Positions 1,996-41,882 of a stretch of 47,534 bases of DNA are shown here, piece after piece (position 1 is the first letter of the stretch; every line of letters starts with the position of its first letter). The stretch comes from Microcaldota archaeon (GTDB taxonomy: Archaea > Micrarchaeota > Micrarchaeia > Anstonellales > Anstonellaceae). The position numbers and the translations under genes are program-made. The stretch lies in contig JAPLWX010000001.1 of assembly GCA_026396415.1 (NCBI GenBank), forward strand, positions 1-47,534, read 5' to 3'. The notes under the pieces were generated by a model that made no database searches, was not told the DNA's origin, and was given only the letters and a program-made list of their open reading frames with translations.

Positions 1996-3335
1996 AGATA
2001 CTCTTTCTTCACTCCATATATGTCCAGGAAAATCCTGGTCAGGCGTGCCTGGTCATACTCTCCAAAAAGCCTGCTTATGCCGGAGCCGTCCTGGAATTTC
2101 ACTTTCGCCGTGCCATCTATGAACTGCACAAACTGCTCCCCTTCAAACATTTTTCCCATCACAAGCTGTTTTATCATTTCTGGGCCCACGATGTGCGGAA
2201 TCCTTGTCATTATTTTGATGAGCTGCTGGTCAAAGTACGGGGATTCCAGCCGAATGCCGTATTCTGCGAATATCTTGCCCATCCTTGCAAGCGCGTGCTT
2301 TGGCAGGCCTCCCCTGCCCAGCACAAGGTCGCTCATCTTATCCCCAAACGTCAATGCCATCCTGAACCAAACGTCCCCCCTGTCCTGCGTGGAGTAGCCG
2401 TACGCCTGCGGGTTAAAGCAGTAATCATTGAACATTTCATTCGGTCCCTCCCCGCAGAAAACAGTGCTTATGCCCTCTGCCACGACTGCCTTGCCGATAA
2501 GGTACATTGACAACGAGCACAGTGCATTGTCCTTTTTCGGGCTGCCGCCTACAAGGAGGGTTTTCATGACCGCCGCATCAACATCAATACCACTTTCAAT
2601 CTCTTTTTCATAGATGAGCTTCCTGCCTGGGGAATATTTCTGCACCGATATCGAAAGCCCATTGCCATTTCTCTTCACGCAAACTTCCGACAGTTCCAAC
2701 CCGAAAACGCTTGCGAACTGCCTGCTTTTGACAATGTCCTGGTCGTTTTCATTCACTTTCAAGGTGAACGCGGTAATTTTTCGGTCCTTAAAGCCTGAAA
2801 GCACGTAGCCCACGCTCATGCTGTCCAGCCCGCCCGAAAGCAGGAGTCCTATCTCCTTCTCAGGGATTGTGGCGAGCCGCTGCTCTATTGATGCCTGGAA
2901 AAAGCCCCTCAGCTTCGGGCAAGTTGCCTGGAAGTTGCTCGGGTCAATGCCGGCAATATCGCTTTCCTGCAAGGTAGGCATTATTTCCTCCTCCATGGGG
3001 CAAAGCGAGTCAAACGCCCTGCTGTCAAATGTGATGCGGGTGTTGTTATGGACTGCGCGCACGCGCTCCCATGAGAATTCCGCGCCGTTCTCTTCCCGGT
3101 ACTGCTTGATGTCGCAGATATTGCTTGCCACGACAAGCTCCTTCCTTTTCACATCCTGGTAAAAGTGGAGCGGGTTTTCGCCAGGCCAATCCCTTGAAAG
3201 GACAATCTTCCCATCAACGACTTTGATGTTTCCATACCGGTAGGCGTTGTTCGGGAAAGCCTTCAGGTTCATGATGTCCGTGGCTACAAAGCCTTTCGCC
3301 TCGATTGTTTCTTTCCTCATTATCATGATGACCAC
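1992..3335 (-). CDS. Asparagine synthase-like (AsnB C-terminal domain) amidotransferase/ATP-pyrophosphatase family protein; start may be internal
   Basis: LLLSGGLDSMSVGYVLSGF PP-loop and CGEGPNEMFNDY motif; N-terminal part lacks an N-terminal catalytic Cys. Confidence 0.7.
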   Translation of the reverse strand: MVIMIMRKETIEAKGFVATDIMNLKAFPNNAYRYGNIKVVDGKIVLSRDWPGENPLHFYQDVKRKELVVASNICDIKQYREENGAEFSWERVRAVHNNTRITFDSRAFDSLCPMEEEIMPTLQESDIAGIDPSNFQATCPKLRGFFQASIEQRLATIPEKEIGLLLSGGLDSMSVGYVLSGFKDRKITAFTLKVNENDQDIVKSRQFASVFGLELSEVCVKRNGNGLSISVQKYSPGRKLIYEKEIESGIDVDAAVMKTLLVGGSPKKDNALCSLSMYLIGKAVVAEGISTVFCGEGPNEMFNDYCFNPQAYGYSTQDRGDVWFRMALTFGDKMSDLVLGRGGLPKHALARMGKIFAEYGIRLESPYFDQQLIKIMTRIPHIVGPEMIKQLVMGKMFEGEQFVQFIDGTAKVKFQDGSGISRLFGEYDQARLTRIFLDIYGVKKEYL

Positions 3336-3356
3336 CTCAATGTTATTATTGGTGGT
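3331..3356. promoter_or_regulatory. Operator-like inverted repeat at the asnB-like gene start
   Basis: ACCACCtcAAT...ATTGGTGGT in the AT-rich divergent intergenic region. Confidence 0.35.
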
Positions 3357-3447
3357 TTAATGTAGATATAGTGCTTATTATAATTATTTATTAGATTTTT
3401 TGTCAAAACCGCCTATATTATAAAATATAACTATAAAAGATTGAAAT

Positions 3448-4437
3448 ATGGTAATAAAGCTGGACCTGAAGGACAGGAAGCTCCTCTATGGGCTGGACAG
3501 GAACGCACGCGCTACGTATAGCGAGCTTGCCACGCGCGCAGGGGTTTCAAAGCAGGTGGCAAGGTACCGGCTGAACCTTCTTGAGAATCAGGGGGCGATA
3601 AACACCCATTTTGCAATCATAGACGTGGCCCGGCTCGGCTATACCATCCGCAAGGCTTTCATAAAGCTGCAGAATGCCGATGAAAAACAGGAAGGGGAAC
3701 TGATAGCATGGCTGAAGGAAAATCCCAATGTGGTATGGCTGGCATCATCGGACGGTCAATTCGACATCTCTTTCGGCATGCGCTCCATCAACATCGAAAA
3801 ATACACCGAGCAGCTTGCGGAAATCGACAATAAGTTCGGGCACCTTTTCCTGGAGCGGCAGATTGCCCCCATTGTGAAAGGGCAGTACTTCTACCGCGAT
3901 TACCTGATTGGCAAGGAAGCAGGCACTGAGCGTGAGCTTGCATTCGGCTCCGTGCCCCTTCCGCCCAAGCTGGATGGCAAGGATTGGGGAATCCTCGTGG
4001 AACTTGGGAAGGATGCACGCACGCCAGTTTCCGACATTGCAAGGAAAATCGGCCTTTCGCCCGACGCCGTTTCCAAGCGGCTCAAGCGCCTGGAGGAAGT
4101 GGGTGCAGTGCGCGGATACGTGCTGGTCCTTGACAATCCCGCTCTCGGGCAGCTGCATTACAAGGTGCTGGTGCGGCTCAAAACCGTAACCCAAAAAAGA
4201 TACCAATCCCTTGTGGAATTCTGCCGAAGGCACCCAGATATCTTTTACATAGTGAAAACATTCGGGGTGTGGGAATTTGAAATCGACATGGAGGTTTCAA
4301 ACGTCGCGGCATTCAGGAAAATCATGCGGGATATGAAGGGAAAGTTCTCAGACATCATCCGGGACTATTCGTACATCAGCATATACAAGATACACAAGTA
4401 CAATTTCTGCCCAAGCAAGCCCGAAGTCAGCATCTAG
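3448..4437 (+). CDS. Tandem Lrp/AsnC-family transcriptional regulator (two HTH-RAM units)
   Basis: Two HTH segments (LDLKDRKLLYGLDRNARATYSELATRAGVSKQVARYRL and DGKDWGILVELGKDARTPVSDIARKIGLSPDAVSKRLKRL), each followed by a RAM-like segment. Confidence 0.8.
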   Translation: MVIKLDLKDRKLLYGLDRNARATYSELATRAGVSKQVARYRLNLLENQGAINTHFAIIDVARLGYTIRKAFIKLQNADEKQEGELIAWLKENPNVVWLASSDGQFDISFGMRSINIEKYTEQLAEIDNKFGHLFLERQIAPIVKGQYFYRDYLIGKEAGTERELAFGSVPLPPKLDGKDWGILVELGKDARTPVSDIARKIGLSPDAVSKRLKRLEEVGAVRGYVLVLDNPALGQLHYKVLVRLKTVTQKRYQSLVEFCRRHPDIFYIVKTFGVWEFEIDMEVSNVAAFRKIMRDMKGKFSDIIRDYSYISIYKIHKYNFCPSKPEVSI

Positions 4438-6098
4438 ATTTTCTTCTGCATGTACGCGCCCTCAAGCGCGTAGCCTGATTTCCTGTAGTAGCCCCTCGCG
4501 CCAGGGCCTGAAAGCACGCTTATTTTTTCCAGCCCGAATTCCCTGCGCGTGATTTCCTCCGCCTCGTGCAGAAGCCGCGCGCCCAGCCCCCTGTGCTGTT
4601 CCTTCTCTGCAGAGCGCTCGCCAATCAACGCCTCCTGCCCGTAGACATGGAGCTCGCGCACAACTGAAGATGATGCGAGTTCAGCGCGGTGCGGCTTATG
4701 GGGCACTCGCAGGCGCAGGAAAGCTGCAATCAGGTCCTTTTCCCTGTCCTCAAACGACAGGAAGATTTCCTTCCCCCCTGATGCAGCATAGTCCATGCGG
4801 CAAAGCCCAAGCGAGAGCTTGCTTGCTGCAATTCCCTTCCTCTCCTCGCTGCCAATCTCCCTGCAGCGTATGCAGCGGCACTTTTCCCCCCGCTTGCGCA
4901 GAAGCTCATCCACTATCTGCCTCAGGTTCGAGTTTTTCACGCCTGCGGCAACAAGGGGCGAAGGGATGTCGCGCTGGATGCGCGGCACCCTCACATAAGG
5001 GGGTATGAAGCGCGTGGCGTCGGCAATCACTTCCGCAGCCTCTTCAGTGGTGTACGGCGAAAACTCGCCGCGCTTCCACATGCCATATAGGGGAGTGCCC
5101 TGCATCACCAGCACAGGGTAGATTTTCACCATGTCAGGCTGGAAGCGCGGGTCGGAAAATAGAGCGCGGAAATATCCCACATCCTGCTTCGGCGTTGCAA
5201 AAAGCCCGGGCATCATGTGGTAGCAGATTTTGAAGCCCGAGTCGCGGAGCACTGCTGTGGAGCGCACAACATCAGACACGCTGTGCCCGCGGAGCACGCG
5301 GCGGTACACTGCATCTGAAAGCGCCTGCACGCCAAGCTCCACCTGCGTGCCGCCCATGGCAAGCATTGCGTCAGCCTCGCGCCTCATGCCAAAGTCAGGC
5401 CGCGTCTCGAATGTCACGCCGATTGCGCGGTGCGGCGCGCGCTCGTTCGCATCAATCGCAGCTGCAAGGCCGCCTGCTTTCTTTCCATTGAGCGTGTCGA
5501 ACGCCTCTTTCATGAATCCCTCCTGCGCCTTTTTCGGCGAGCAAAGGAAGGTGCCGCCCATCACGATGAGATGGCACTTGTCCGTGCCATGCCCCTGCCC
5601 TGCATACTGCGCCAGGCGCGCCTCCACCTGCTTCCTGGCGGAATAGCCGCACTCAATCGCCCTCATGGTGGCGGGCTCAAAGCCGGTGTATGACTGCGGC
5701 GCATTCTTCCCCCTGGGGCAGTAAATGCATTTGCCCGGGCAGGGGAAAGGAGGAGGCATGAGCGCGAGCGGCGACACGCCCGACAGCGTGCGCGTGGGCG
5801 ATTTGAGGAGTGCGCGGCGAAGAGCAGGCTGCGTGCGGGGGACAAATGCAAGCATTTCTGAATTCTTCAGGTAGCTTATGCCGTATTCGCGCGATATCCT
5901 GTTTTTCAGCCGCTCCATGCTCTGCAGGGGCTTTTCCAAAAGCGAAACCGCAGCTTCCCTTGCGGCTTCCTTCCTGCCCGCGCTCTTTTCTCCGTTGGCC
6001 GCGCTTCTTTTTTTTGGGGAAAACTCAGGCAGGCTGCCGTCTTCCTCCATCAGCCTTGCGGCTGTGCGCGCATTGCTTGCTTTGGCAGCCAAATTCAC
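4434..6098 (-). CDS. elp3: Elp3-family tRNA uridine(34) modification enzyme (radical SAM + GNAT)
   Basis: CPGKCIYCPRGKNAPQSYTGFEPATMRA radical-SAM cysteines; C-terminal GNAT region HRGLGARLLHEAEEITRREFG...GARGYYRKSGYALEGAYMQK. Confidence 0.92.
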   Translation of the reverse strand: MNLAAKASNARTAARLMEEDGSLPEFSPKKRSAANGEKSAGRKEAAREAAVSLLEKPLQSMERLKNRISREYGISYLKNSEMLAFVPRTQPALRRALLKSPTRTLSGVSPLALMPPPFPCPGKCIYCPRGKNAPQSYTGFEPATMRAIECGYSARKQVEARLAQYAGQGHGTDKCHLIVMGGTFLCSPKKAQEGFMKEAFDTLNGKKAGGLAAAIDANERAPHRAIGVTFETRPDFGMRREADAMLAMGGTQVELGVQALSDAVYRRVLRGHSVSDVVRSTAVLRDSGFKICYHMMPGLFATPKQDVGYFRALFSDPRFQPDMVKIYPVLVMQGTPLYGMWKRGEFSPYTTEEAAEVIADATRFIPPYVRVPRIQRDIPSPLVAAGVKNSNLRQIVDELLRKRGEKCRCIRCREIGSEERKGIAASKLSLGLCRMDYAASGGKEIFLSFEDREKDLIAAFLRLRVPHKPHRAELASSSVVRELHVYGQEALIGERSAEKEQHRGLGARLLHEAEEITRREFGLEKISVLSGPGARGYYRKSGYALEGAYMQKKI

Positions 6099-6101
6099 AC
6101 C

Positions 6102-6914
6102 TCAGGGCAAGAAGTTCGAAAGCAGCCCCACGATGAAGTACAGCGGCGCCTCGGCTGACGGGAAGAGGAGCACGCCGCGGCTCACTGACTTGAAGTCGGA
6201 CAGCAAATCCGTGTTCACGCGTAGCGCCACAGGCACCTCCGCCACTATCCTGTCGCTCGAGGACGAGCGCGCCCATATCGTCACGTCATAATCCGCTTCG
6301 TCGTCCCCCACGATTTCGTATGTCAGCGTTTTAGTGGTCTGCGAGGGGATGTATATGCTCCTGCGGAACTCCCAGGTGCGGACGCCCGTGGAGCCCACAA
6401 CGAATATGTCGTTTGCCATGCCCTTGTTTGAAATCGTTATCGTGTACCTTGCAGGCTGCCCTGCCCCTGTGCTTATGCTTACCGGGGAAACCGTCATGTC
6501 CATCACGTCGTGCGTGACCGTCACGCTTGCCGTGAATTCCACGTCGGGGCCAAGCCCCTTGTCCCCTGCCTCGTCCCAAAGCTTGAGCACAACCGCATAG
6601 TCGCCGTCAGGCGCATCCTTCGGGACGGTGATATCCGCCTGCAGGGGGGTTGCATAAAGCTTGGAAGGCGCGGAGGCCCATCCCTCTGGAAGGGAGCTTG
6701 CCGAAAGCCGGTCATACGCGCCGCCGGTGCCATACGGCCCCCCTGTCGCCACCCGGGGGTCCACCACGATGGAGAAAGTCTGCCCTGGCCCCACATTGCC
6801 TATGCTGATTGCCGAGCCCTGCCCGACCTGCGCAGACACGGGCGCAAGCACGCTCAATGCGAACGCGCACGAAAGCAGCGCGGCGAACGCGGAAATGAAA
6901 ACCAAAAGCCTCAT
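6102..6914 (-). CDS. Secreted/surface protein with signal peptide, hypothetical
   Basis: Signal-like MRLLVFISAFAALLSCAFA at 6914; the longer ORF upstream overlaps the opposite gene and is not expected to be coding. Confidence 0.6.
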   Translation of the reverse strand: MRLLVFISAFAALLSCAFALSVLAPVSAQVGQGSAISIGNVGPGQTFSIVVDPRVATGGPYGTGGAYDRLSASSLPEGWASAPSKLYATPLQADITVPKDAPDGDYAVVLKLWDEAGDKGLGPDVEFTASVTVTHDVMDMTVSPVSISTGAGQPARYTITISNKGMANDIFVVGSTGVRTWEFRRSIYIPSQTTKTLTYEIVGDDEADYDVTIWARSSSSDRIVAEVPVALRVNTDLLSDFKSVSRGVLLFPSAEAPLYFIVGLLSNFLP

Positions 6915-38295: not shown

Positions 38296-40050
38296 ATGTG
38301 CGGAATAATCGGCTATATTGGGTACCGCAAAGCGTCCGAGGTCATCTTCAAGGGGCTTCGCAAGCTTGAATACCGCGGATACGACTCCGCAGGCATTGCA
38401 ACCGTTTCAGGAAAAGGCATCTCGGCGATAAAGGACATCGGCAGGATAGACGACATCCACGCCAAGCGCAATTTCCTCCAGCTCGAGGGCAATATGGGCA
38501 TAGGGCACACCCGCTGGGCAACGCATGGCGGCGTCACGCAGAAAAACGCGCACCCGCACACGGATTCCACCGGCAAAATCTACATTGTGCACAACGGCGT
38601 GATAGAGAATTTCGACTCGCTGCGCGCCGCGCTTGCGAAAAAGGGGCACAAGTTCGTGTCCGAGACCGACACCGAGGTCATCGCGCACCTGGTGGAGGAG
38701 GAAGGCAAGAAAGAGGGCGACTTTGGCAAGGCGTTTGCAAACGCCGTGGCAAAACTCTCAGGCTCATGGTCCCTCGTGTGCATGCACCAGGGCGAGGAGG
38801 CGATTTACCTGTCAAGGAACGGCCCTCCCCTCATACTTGGCATCGGCAAGGATGAAATGTTCTGCGCTTCCGACGTTCCCGCTCTCCTGGACTACACCAA
38901 GCGCGTAATCTACATAGAGGATGGCGACCTGGTGCGCTTCACGCGCGAGGGTTACGAAATAAAAAACAAAGGCAAAAAAGTGGAGCGGGCAGTGCACACC
39001 GTCACGTGGACCGCGAAAATGGCGGAAAAGGAGGGCTTCGACCATTTCATGCTCAAGGAGATACACGAGCAGGGCGGAAAGATACGCGAAGCGTTGGCGG
39101 CGGATGCCTCAGGGGCGGTTGCGCTCCTGAAAGGGCAGCAGAACATAACGGTAGTCGCCTGCGGCACCTCCTTTTACGCAGGCCTGGTATTCAAGCAGCT
39201 CCTCCAGTCCCGCCTTGGCGTGAATTGCGACGTGATTATCGGCTCGGAGTTCGCATATGCGCGCACGGGCAATGAGCGCGTCGTGGTCGCCATCTCCCAG
39301 TCCGGCGAAACCGCGGACACTCTTTCCGCAGTGCGCCTTGCAAAGAAATCAGGCGCAAAAATACTTGGCATCACCAACGTGACAGACAGCTCCCTTTGGC
39401 GCGAATCGGATGCAACCGTGAACATCGCGGCAGGCCCCGAGATTGCGGTGGTGGCAACCAAGTCCTTCACCTCCCAGGTGGCGGTGCTTTCCAAAATCGC
39501 GCTCACCCTATCAGGCGAAAAGCAGGAGATCTCCTCGCTCTCGGATGCATCCGAGCAGATCGAGCAGGTGCTTGAGCGCGCAGGGGAGCTTGAAACGCTC
39601 GCCTCCCGCCTTGCCCCCCACAAGGACTTTTTCTTCATAGGCCGCTCGCTTTCCTTCCCCTCCGCGCTTGAAGGCGCTCTCAAGCTTAAGGAAATCACTT
39701 ACCTCCACGCTGAGGCATACGCAGCGGGCGAGCTCAAGCACGGCCCGCTCTCCCTCCTGCAGAAAGACGTGGTGGTGGTCGCGCTTGCGCCATCGGGCAC
39801 CTCCCTTCCGAAAACAATTTCCAACATGTCCGAGTGCCGCGCGCGCGACGCGCAACTCGTCGCATTCTCCGACAGCGACGAGGCAATCTCGAAAAGCGCG
39901 CTCCATTTCCGCATGCCGCGCGTGGCGCAGCTCGCCATCCCCATAGTCTACGCAGTGCCCCTGCAGCTCCTTGCCTACTACATGGCGGTGAAACTTGAAA
40001 AGGATCCAGATAAACCACGAAATCTAGCAAAAAGCTGTACCGTGGAATAG
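38296..40050 (+). CDS. glmS: Glutamine-fructose-6-phosphate aminotransferase (isomerizing); 3' end appears recoded by the downstream insertion
   Basis: MCGIIGYIGYRKASEVIFKGLRKLEYRGYDSAG, SIS domains, C-terminal DPDKPRNLAKSCTVE*. Confidence 0.96.
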   Translation: MCGIIGYIGYRKASEVIFKGLRKLEYRGYDSAGIATVSGKGISAIKDIGRIDDIHAKRNFLQLEGNMGIGHTRWATHGGVTQKNAHPHTDSTGKIYIVHNGVIENFDSLRAALAKKGHKFVSETDTEVIAHLVEEEGKKEGDFGKAFANAVAKLSGSWSLVCMHQGEEAIYLSRNGPPLILGIGKDEMFCASDVPALLDYTKRVIYIEDGDLVRFTREGYEIKNKGKKVERAVHTVTWTAKMAEKEGFDHFMLKEIHEQGGKIREALAADASGAVALLKGQQNITVVACGTSFYAGLVFKQLLQSRLGVNCDVIIGSEFAYARTGNERVVVAISQSGETADTLSAVRLAKKSGAKILGITNVTDSSLWRESDATVNIAAGPEIAVVATKSFTSQVAVLSKIALTLSGEKQEISSLSDASEQIEQVLERAGELETLASRLAPHKDFFFIGRSLSFPSALEGALKLKEITYLHAEAYAAGELKHGPLSLLQKDVVVVALAPSGTSLPKTISNMSECRARDAQLVAFSDSDEAISKSALHFRMPRVAQLAIPIVYAVPLQLLAYYMAVKLEKDPDKPRNLAKSCTVE

Positions 40051-41571
40051 CTTTTTAATCTTTCTCTTCTTATAAAGCACATGATTATCCGTCTTAAAAG
40101 CAAGGTCAAAAGAGGAAACAGTTCAGGAACGGGCTTTGCCAAACTAACCTCGAAAAAATCAAAAATTAATTTGGGCGACCGAGTCAAAGTCTCTTTCTTC
40201 ATCAATGATAGCACGCTGTTTTTCTTCGCAAAAATCATCAAAATGGATGGCATGCTCGGAGTTTATATTCCCTCCAATCTTGCCAAAAAATATGGTTTGC
40301 TTGGAAAGACAATCACTCTGGAAGTTGAAAAAATAGCTGGATTTGGAACTAAAGCAGGCAAAGATGGAAGAGTATACATTCCAATTGAATATGGAAAAAA
40401 ATTTTCTCTCGAAACAAATGACATCGTCTCAGCGGACATTATTTTGAATCGGGATAAACAAACCTGTCTTCTGAAAATAATCAAACGAAAAAGAAACAAT
40501 AAAATCGAATTTATGGCATTTCCAAATCCATCATATCCATCCAAGGATTTGCAAGTCATATTAAAGAATAAGCTATCGAAAAGCATACGGCCTACAGCAG
40601 GGAGCATTGATTTGAAAAAAATCCTCGGAAACACCCTCTCTCAAATCAATGAAAACGAACTGGCAATTTTTGATGGAAAGAAAAAATCCGTGGTAATCCT
40701 GGCAGATATTTCCTATGAAGAAATTGCACTGTATATAGGCGCTTATTTTGCAGATGGGACAAGAAAAGGAAACAGCTGGGGCATCTGCGCTTCAACTCCG
40801 GAGCAGGCGAAATTTTATCTGAAGATGCACAGTATGCTGATCCGCGATGCATCGCCTGTCTTTGAACTCAGTTTTACCATTCTTCATGGCAAAGTCGATT
40901 CTGCGAGGCTGATCAAAGAATGGCAAACTGCAACTGATGTGGATTTAAGCAAAATAAAAATCAGAACACACAAATCCCTCTCGGGCAGCGCCAGGAAATA
41001 CAATGACTTTGGGACCTTGGTGATAAAAGAGCACAGGCTGGCGGTTTTAAGATTTTACAACAAAATTCTCTTCTCTCTCATAAACAGGATAACTCGCACC
41101 AAAAACAAGGAACTCGCCATGAATTTCATATGTGGTGTTTTGGAGGGAGACGGCGCTGTTAATGCCAAGAAAAGAGCGCATATTCAGGTAGCTACCAATA
41201 GAAACGACTGCCCCATTCTGGAAAGGATATTGGCTGTAAGTGGGCTGCGATTTAAGGCGGTTAAGGAAGGAGACAATAAATTCTATATACGGATAGGGGC
41301 ATTGGAGATAATAAGAAATCTACCTCTATTGGAAAATAAAATATTCGTTTTCTATCCAAAGAGACGACGGCGCCTGTTTTCAAGATTGGCAGCTGTCGGC
41401 GGCGTGAAGTTCTTGATTGGAACGCAACCTTCTGCAGCATCTTGGGTAAAAAGTTCATTTAAGAAGATGGGGCTTGTTGATAAAAAATATAAACTGACTT
41501 CGCTTGGGAAAAAAGTGAAAAGCAGCATAATCGTGAACATGGAGGCACAAAAGTCAGTCACCGTGGAATAA
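39999..41571 (+). mobile_element. Homing-endonuclease insertion at the glmS 3' end, with duplicated gene tail
   Basis: Direct repeat ACCGTGGAATA at 40039-40049 and 41560-41570; KSCTVE* and KSVTVE* on either side; AT-rich codons begin about 40005. Confidence 0.82.
40081..41571 (+). CDS. LAGLIDADG homing endonuclease with N-terminal AbrB/SpoVT-like region; C-terminus ends in a GlmS-tail duplicate
   Basis: LYIGAYFADGTRKG and FICGVLEGDGAVNAKKR LAGLIDADG-type motifs; N-term DGRVYIPIEYGKKFSLETNDIV AbrB-like; AT-rich relative to neighbours; C-term KSVTVE*. Confidence 0.88.
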   Translation: MIIRLKSKVKRGNSSGTGFAKLTSKKSKINLGDRVKVSFFINDSTLFFFAKIIKMDGMLGVYIPSNLAKKYGLLGKTITLEVEKIAGFGTKAGKDGRVYIPIEYGKKFSLETNDIVSADIILNRDKQTCLLKIIKRKRNNKIEFMAFPNPSYPSKDLQVILKNKLSKSIRPTAGSIDLKKILGNTLSQINENELAIFDGKKKSVVILADISYEEIALYIGAYFADGTRKGNSWGICASTPEQAKFYLKMHSMLIRDASPVFELSFTILHGKVDSARLIKEWQTATDVDLSKIKIRTHKSLSGSARKYNDFGTLVIKEHRLAVLRFYNKILFSLINRITRTKNKELAMNFICGVLEGDGAVNAKKRAHIQVATNRNDCPILERILAVSGLRFKAVKEGDNKFYIRIGALEIIRNLPLLENKIFVFYPKRRRRLFSRLAAVGGVKFLIGTQPSAASWVKSSFKKMGLVDKKYKLTSLGKKVKSSIIVNMEAQKSVTVE

Positions 41572-41612
41572 GCATTATTAATTGCCGCGTCGTTTCTCTT
41601 CCTGGTGATGCC

Positions 41613-41882
41613 ATGGTCTCGCTCAAGAAGTACGCCCCCTGCAGGTGCGGCGCGAACAACTCGTTCGACTTCAATTCAGACCTCGCGGTGGAAGACCTCA
41701 CCCTCACTGCGCGCTGCCCCTCGTGCGGCGCGTCTGTGACAATTTCCATCTCTTCGCTCTTCTCCCCCCTGCAGCCCGCCTCCCCGTCCCCTGCGACCCC
41801 TGACGCCGCGCTCGCACAGGCCCATGCCGAAGAGGAGACAAAGGCGAACGTGGAGCAGGCTGTAAGGGACCTGTTCAGGTGA
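41613..41882 (+). CDS. Small Zn-ribbon protein (89 aa)
   Basis: CRCGANNSFDFNSDLAVEDLTLTARCPSCGASVTISIS...ANVEQAVRDLFR; a degenerate copy lies at 42820-43124. Confidence 0.65.
   Translation: MVSLKKYAPCRCGANNSFDFNSDLAVEDLTLTARCPSCGASVTISISSLFSPLQPASPSPATPDAALAQAHAEEETKANVEQAVRDLFR

Follow-up and report, generated by a model that had tools for sequence, protein, structure and literature searches.

How can a gene for a nuclease-like protein come to lie in the last codons of a conserved metabolic gene and leave that gene complete? This question is raised by glmS, which encodes glutamine--fructose-6-phosphate aminotransferase, in a stretch of 47,534 nucleotides (nt) of archaeal DNA (contig JAPLWX010000001.1 of a Microcaldota archaeon; the whole stretch that was analyzed is termed the window herein). 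There, glmS (38296-40050) is followed, after a gap of 30 nt, by an open reading frame (ORF) of 496 amino acids with LAGLIDADG-like motifs, which ends at 41571 with EAQKSVTVE and uses the native glmS stop codon. An earlier note on this DNA had described this order and proposed that a homing endonuclease gene had replaced the 3' end of glmS with a recoded copy; both genes, the gap, and the KSVTVE ending are present as it described them. We consider it probable (about 72%), judging from sequence comparison, that the insert is a homing element that uses neither an intron nor an intein and that puts a new 3' end on the gene in which it resides.

The identity of glmS is secure, with a match to TIGR01135 over the full length (E 2.4e-216). 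Its last 15 codons have a GC content at third codon positions (GC3) of 0.20, compared to 0.745 for the gene body, and none of the 554 15-codon windows of the body is as low, in agreement with the AT-rich end that the earlier note had pointed out. The direct repeat ACCGTGGAATA that it had noticed at both ends of the insert, at 40039-40049 and 41560-41570, is an exact match of 11 base pairs (bp). The closest relative of the window's genome, a sister species (G008; 88% amino acid identity in GlmS), has an uninterrupted glmS, which ends with gac ccc gac aag ccg cgc aac ctt gcc aag tcg gtc aca gtg gaa taa GCATTATTAATTGCCGCGTCG; an empty end of this type includes CGCAACCTTGCCAAGTCGGTCACAGTGGAATAA. 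The two genes are in good agreement upstream of position 40003, as far as the last codons ahead of it, and the foreign tract may start a few codons further upstream, as early as ∼39993. Over the common residues (P to S), the upstream tail of the window shares none of 10 codons with G008, whereas, starting with AAGTC, the downstream tail and the DNA following it match G008 at almost every base, through the TATA-like box of the next gene, which then follows. Because the downstream copy matches the sister species and the codons of the upstream copy differ, 41551-41571 is, on this alignment, the original end of glmS, and 40003-40050 was brought in with the insert, which bears out the earlier assignment of the upstream tail as foreign and the downstream tail as native.

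Uninterrupted glmS genes were also found in all other genomes of the same genus, a member of Candidatus Micrarchaeota, with a sequenced glmS end (G002, G003, G005, G006, G007, and G009), giving seven empty alleles with G008 included, and the 496-amino-acid ORF is present only in the window's genome among 301 genomes of the phylum. The insertion is real and recent. The comparison of relatives' glmS 3' ends that the earlier note had suggested yielded empty-site alleles with KSVTVE (G008), and the AT-rich KSCTVE tail is not shared by uninterrupted relatives.

The different spelling of the foreign tail had been read as synonymous recoding. The codons do differ at all 10 shared residues, but one change, V to C in KSCTVE, is not synonymous, and selection is not needed. 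Among natural glmS tail pairs from the phylum, a comparison that includes the window's own tail, 2.1% share no codon (n = 2,120 pairs), and the same holds for 29 of the 373 pairs of an AT-rich with a GC-rich tail (7.8%). Since natural pairs of the latter kind reach zero shared codons, a glmS tail from an AT-rich donor accounts for the spelling, and recoding by selection was rejected as unnecessary. The donor itself was not found. Drift from a local duplication is disfavored by the V-to-C change and by the serine codons, AGC in one tail and TCA in the other, which are more than one substitution apart.

As far as the sequence tells, GlmS is complete without any splicing. It lies in one frame with the 496-amino-acid ORF, separated from it by a single TAG (at 40048), and the gap between them, with the TATA-box-like CTTTTTAATC, is probably the ORF's own promoter, with a spacing typical of archaeal promoters for a leaderless mRNA. 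A self-splicing intron was rejected after an Rfam scan for group I and group II intron RNAs, in which the single match, to an unrelated family, was weak and lay far below the threshold. An intein was rejected because of the TAG, the lack of a Hint match in Pfam and NCBIfam, and a downstream junction residue that is K rather than Cys, Ser, or Thr; the earlier view that neither kind of element is involved therefore stands. A Tn7-like transposon was rejected as well, since the insert consists of one ORF, contains no tns genes, and interrupts the last codons of glmS. Elsewhere in the phylum (G056:C63:810-4028), glmS is split in frame at about residue 70 by a LAGLIDADG-containing insert of ∼1.4 kb (open frame of 1,081 amino acids), apparently an intein; if it is one, elements of two kinds use glmS as a target in this phylum.

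The ORF differs from its flanks in composition (40% GC, compared to ∼58%). A profile of free-standing Micrarchaeota LAGLIDADG proteins scored it at 11.7 bits, compared to at most 5.9 bits for 500 shuffled sequences and 4.3 bits for the other ORFs of the window, and in the alignment with these proteins the acidic residues D225 and D357, at the positions of the catalytic acids, end two LAGLIDADG helices. A single-sequence AlphaFold model was of too low a quality for use (predicted local distance difference test [pLDDT] of 38). When LAGLIDADG sequences were included in the alignment, residues 340 to 410, corresponding to the second LAGLIDADG half, were modeled in blocks with pLDDT values of 63 to 86, and the helices of this model are compatible with a C-terminal winged helix. 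In a structure search with this model, nearly all of the top 50 PDB matches are LAGLIDADG nucleases. We regard the product as a very divergent LAGLIDADG protein with two motifs, probably a homing endonuclease, and with a probable winged helix, as far as profile, alignment, and model allow. The label AbrB-LAGLIDADG given to it earlier holds for its second part; the resemblance of the N terminus to AbrB/MazE barrels is weak and below the cutoff (MazE_antitoxin, E = 0.03).

In the mechanism that we propose, the cleavage, the cut position, the resistance, and the homing itself are inferred. A mobile LAGLIDADG gene would have inserted near the end of glmS, at the boundary between an A and a K codon, and would have brought along the glmS 3' end of a donor rich in AT, so that the recipient's gene body now continues into the donor's tail. 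The recipient's last codons (KSVTVE and the stop codon) would have stayed downstream, where they would provide the endonuclease ORF with its stop codon. The enzyme would cut empty glmS near GCC^AAGTCNGTCACC, and the break would be repaired from an element-bearing copy, with the glmS body serving as homology to the left of the break and the KSVTVE end and downstream DNA to the right. Such a repair would swap the recipient's last codons for those of the donor, add the nuclease gene, and leave the KSVTVE end behind. The filled allele would resist cutting, with its upstream tail spelled differently and its downstream remnant representing half a site. Because the donor tail is joined to the recipient's gene body, GlmS would remain complete, and the next gene would retain its promoter region.

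Table 1 Features at the glmS 3' end of the window, and an insert at the same gene end in a second genome (last row)
Feature	Position	Strand	Basis or remarks
glmS, whole gene	38296-40050	+	Ends with DPDKPRNLAKSCTVE and a stop codon; glutamine--fructose-6-phosphate aminotransferase
glmS body, native, GC-rich	38296..40002	+	TIGR01135, identity to G008, GC3 0.745
Replacement glmS tail (DPDKPRNLAKSCTVE and stop codon), which arrived with the element	40003..40050	+	G008 alignment, codon comparison, GC3 0.20
11-bp direct repeat ACCGTGGAATA, left copy	40039..40049	+	Sequence
Gap, 30 nt, TATA-box-like CTTTTTAATC ∼25 nt upstream of the ORF's ATG	40051..40080	+	Sequence
LAGLIDADG-like ORF, 496 amino acids	40081..41571	+	Ends with EAQKSVTVE; native glmS stop codon
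Layout of this ORF			AbrB-like N terminus (residues ∼1-140); motif 1 IALYIGAYFADGT (D225); motif 2 FICGVLEGDGAV (D357); winged-helix-like C-terminal region
Native glmS tail remnant AAGTCAGTCACCGTGGAATAA (KSVTVE and stop codon), doubles as C terminus of the ORF	41551..41571	+	Near-exact G008 match into shared downstream DNA
11-bp direct repeat ACCGTGGAATA, right copy	41560..41570	+	Sequence
Native downstream spacer, TATA-like ATTATTAAT, promoter region of the next gene, intact after insertion	41572..41614	+	Near-identical in G008
AbiEi/AbiEii pair inserted at a glmS 3' end	L038 (G017:C120) 5215-6722		Flanked by near-identical ∼100-bp repeats

A scan of the 301 phylum genomes for KSxTVE followed by a stop codon revealed extra tail copies beside glmS in two further genomes, G017 and G078. 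In G017, glmS with a differently spelled tail is followed by a hairpin spacer of 50 nt, another tail, an AbiE pair on the opposite strand, a repeat of tail and spacer, a tail matching that of G018, and the syntenic next gene; each of the ∼100-bp repeats that flank the AbiE pair holds a differently spelled glmS tail, the 50-nt hairpin spacer, and a KSVTVE end with its stop codon. In G078, 170 nt (noncoding) lie between the glmS tail and a second KSVTVE end, which abuts a convergent gene that sits directly after glmS in relatives. In all three genomes, including that of the window, the farthest tail copy is the native one and the junction lies within ∼2 bases of the AAG codon. Since G017 and G078 share the junction but carry other cargo, the glmS end is a hotspot. 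Their duplications may have been left by homing events of a similar kind, since a model developed for the yeast WHO elements described below predicts such remnants after decay, or may stem from another agent at the same site. A second pattern match in G079 lies inside the glmS ORF (KSITVEW) and was dismissed as a chance match. The glmS loci of distant species showed no duplicated tails, nor did the 156 genomes examined from the phylum of the Nanoarchaeota record; none was found in the Methanobacteriota record's phylum either, a weak negative, as the stricter pattern would miss the window's own downstream tail. A scan of viral contigs for glmS tails as att sites returned practically only ordinary or contig-truncated glmS genes.

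Several results weigh against a homing element. The ORF has no match above the cutoff among the curated family models of Pfam, NCBIfam, and PHROGs, the Pfam LAGLIDADG models included, for which it is too divergent, and hhalign gave a probability of 21% when it was compared to a LAGLIDADG alignment. The PDB matches of the alignment-based model have E > 0.01 and are partly circular because the alignment behind the model contained LAGLIDADG sequences. No relatives of the ORF were found in genome_contigs, viral_contigs, phages, plasmids, or the 301 phylum genomes, and since neither a homologue nor a donor was found, mobility rests on presence and absence between sister species. Furthermore, the other two tail duplications at the same junction hold no endonuclease gene, so the glmS junction alone is no proof of action by the window's enzyme, and another agent could use the site.

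The best surviving alternative, which we nevertheless consider quite unlikely, names such an agent: a recombinase acting in trans would integrate site specifically into the glmS 3' end, the inserts would carry an att copy of the tail, like islands in tRNA genes or icd, and the LAGLIDADG gene would be mere cargo. This would fit the use of one glmS junction in three lineages with differing cargo (the LAGLIDADG ORF, the AbiE pair with its ∼100-bp tail-containing repeats, and 170 nt of noncoding DNA), the exact 11-bp direct repeat in the window, and a CDC48-like gene in G059, of which a tail of 20 identical bp is duplicated around a nonnuclease ORF. However, neither the window insert nor the AbiE insert contains a recombinase gene, the tails in G017 (inner pair) and G078 share identical runs of 5 bp at most, too short for a fresh tyrosine-recombinase core, and the window element encodes a nuclease-like protein itself.

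It is improbable, too, that a foreign fragment consisting of a donor glmS tail and a downstream gene was joined by homology-facilitated illegitimate recombination, by glmS homology on one side and by ACCGTGGAATA microhomology on the other, with no active mobility. The exact 11-bp microhomology at the right edge would suit such an event, as would the AT-rich composition common to tail and ORF, which a single donor fragment would show, but the same codon boundary was used in three lineages, and the gene carried in the window belongs to a class of nucleases known for homing into conserved genes. An assembly chimera or a local tandem duplication of the tail might be suspected in a probably metagenome-derived genome of 52 contigs with short repeats; it is very improbable here, as the breakpoint lies 6 kb from the end of a 47.5-kb contig, misjoined repeats would be less divergent than the two tails are, the insert is foreign in composition, and more than one substitution separates the serine codons TCA and AGC. 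Barely credible is an intein or intron that has degenerated, or a fusion of GlmS with the nuclease through translation across the TAG so that the true GlmS end would be KSVTVE, for which the common frame with its single TAG speaks, but glmS is already complete ahead of the TAG, Hint/intein domains and intron RNA families are lacking, the downstream junction is QK without Cys, Ser, or Thr, and a TATA-like box lies between glmS and the ORF.

The hypothesis that AbrB-LAGLIDADG ORFs generally duplicate the tail of the upstream gene was not borne out, as none of 35 LAGLIDADG loci repeats the window architecture; one of them, L306, has a tail duplication nearby, with another geometry. This locus (G003:C19:5200-11500), in the same genus, encodes a 467-amino-acid ORF of similar layout (AbrB-like, LAGLIDADG, and winged helix; 2205-3608) directly 5' of tyrS. 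The start of tyrS (∼44 codons, AT-rich) has a foreign appearance and, through a stretch of ∼25 nt, is not in frame with the remainder. The gene preceding the 467-amino-acid ORF has a duplicated 3' end (1990-2095), CDIVAKES and then CDIAATES, each with a stop codon, and the ∼45-nt spacer between them contains an inverted repeat (CCTAGGGGG/CCCCCTAGG) and resembles the G017 spacer in form. A search with the L306 protein gave short matches in the LAGLIDADG region only and no second AbrB-LAGLIDADG ORF. In the window's own genome, a 692-amino-acid TPR-repeat ORF (L352, G000:C14:22500-27000) lies between the two genes that flank the G003 nuclease; in the sister species, G008, no more than ∼270 bp lie at this position. 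In the CDC48-like case (L318, G059:C21:20000-29000; 3780-5110, minus strand), the tail EAYGERR with its stop codon is duplicated, with 20 identical bp, beyond a 1.3-kb insert that encodes a lipoprotein-like, nonnuclease ORF of 413 amino acids; the CDC48-like gene itself carries a LAGLIDADG intein.

The strategy has already been described in eukaryotes (yeast WHO elements, PMC7282813; fungal mORFs, PMC3630166). WHO elements home into FBA1 of Torulaspora and Lachancea and replace its 3' end, with the old end left downstream and without splicing (Coughlan et al. 2020, PMC7282813). Their architecture has been established experimentally in yeast, where a WHO protein cuts the empty but not the replaced allele (PMC7282813). 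Like them, the window element combines a LAGLIDADG-type nuclease gene beside a conserved metabolic gene, a divergent replaced 3' end, the old end downstream, and a functional host gene. Three features of the 3'-end-replacing type are found in the window: the host gene is complete with a divergent end, the nuclease gene lies between the replaced end and the native fragment, and this fragment is closer to the empty alleles of relatives. WHO proteins, however, are derived from inteins and zinc fingers, and their replaced end is ∼400 bp long, compared to ∼48 bp in the window element, which has no Hint or zinc-finger match in Pfam or NCBIfam. Unlike in WHO elements, the remnant here doubles as the C terminus of the nuclease, and the host is an archaeon. 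The window element would thus work like WHO elements, with no kinship to WHO proteins detectable by sequence.

In fungal mitochondria, mORFs replace the C-terminal end of atp6, atp9, cox2, and nad3 (atp6 in Allomyces; atp6, atp9, cox2, and nad3 in Glomus; Beaudet et al. 2013, PMC3630166). As in the window, a foreign C-terminal segment with a LAGLIDADG ORF (in mORFs, also GIY-YIG) replaces the 3' end, and the native C terminus lies downstream; by description, the likeness is one of architecture, and mORFs differ in being organellar, in having mostly larger replaced ends, and in having a sometimes traceable donor. A search of openly licensed papers found no archaeal or bacterial case of a 3'-end-replacing homing element. 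Prophages and islands in gene 3' ends (e.g., icd) also bring a replacement gene end and are driven by an integrase, which is absent from the window insert. Tn7 inserts downstream of glmS and leaves the gene intact. Unlike the window element, it is transposase based and replaces no tail. Tn7 and its relatives (attTn7) target the conserved coding sequence at the 3' end of glmS (PMC11406308), and the window element uses conserved coding sequence that Tn7 also recognizes. A broader idea, which we hold to be unlikely, is that elements in Micrarchaeota commonly move by replacing gene ends: sequence-specific nucleases that cut conserved gene ends would move their own genes and also act in trans on further cargo (AbiE toxin-antitoxin genes, a lipoprotein-like gene, or short hairpin DNA), each insert with a foreign, cut-resistant host gene end; if it were true, the glmS end would be the archaeal counterpart of attTn7 for a splice-free, transposase-free class of elements.

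The window element thus appears, from its sequence, to represent in a prokaryote a rare type of element that was already known, a proposed third structural class that is neither intron nor intein. It would extend to archaea a class of homing element for which the reports to date come from the nuclei of yeasts and the mitochondria of fungi, and it suggests that selfish DNA has repeatedly evolved the use of a replacement gene end to occupy an important gene; gene 3' ends can differ in ancestry from the rest of the gene. Synthetic home-and-rescue gene drives, engineered with Cas9 in insects, target an essential gene and carry its rescue (PMC7968924). What these drives do by design, the window element would do as their natural counterpart.

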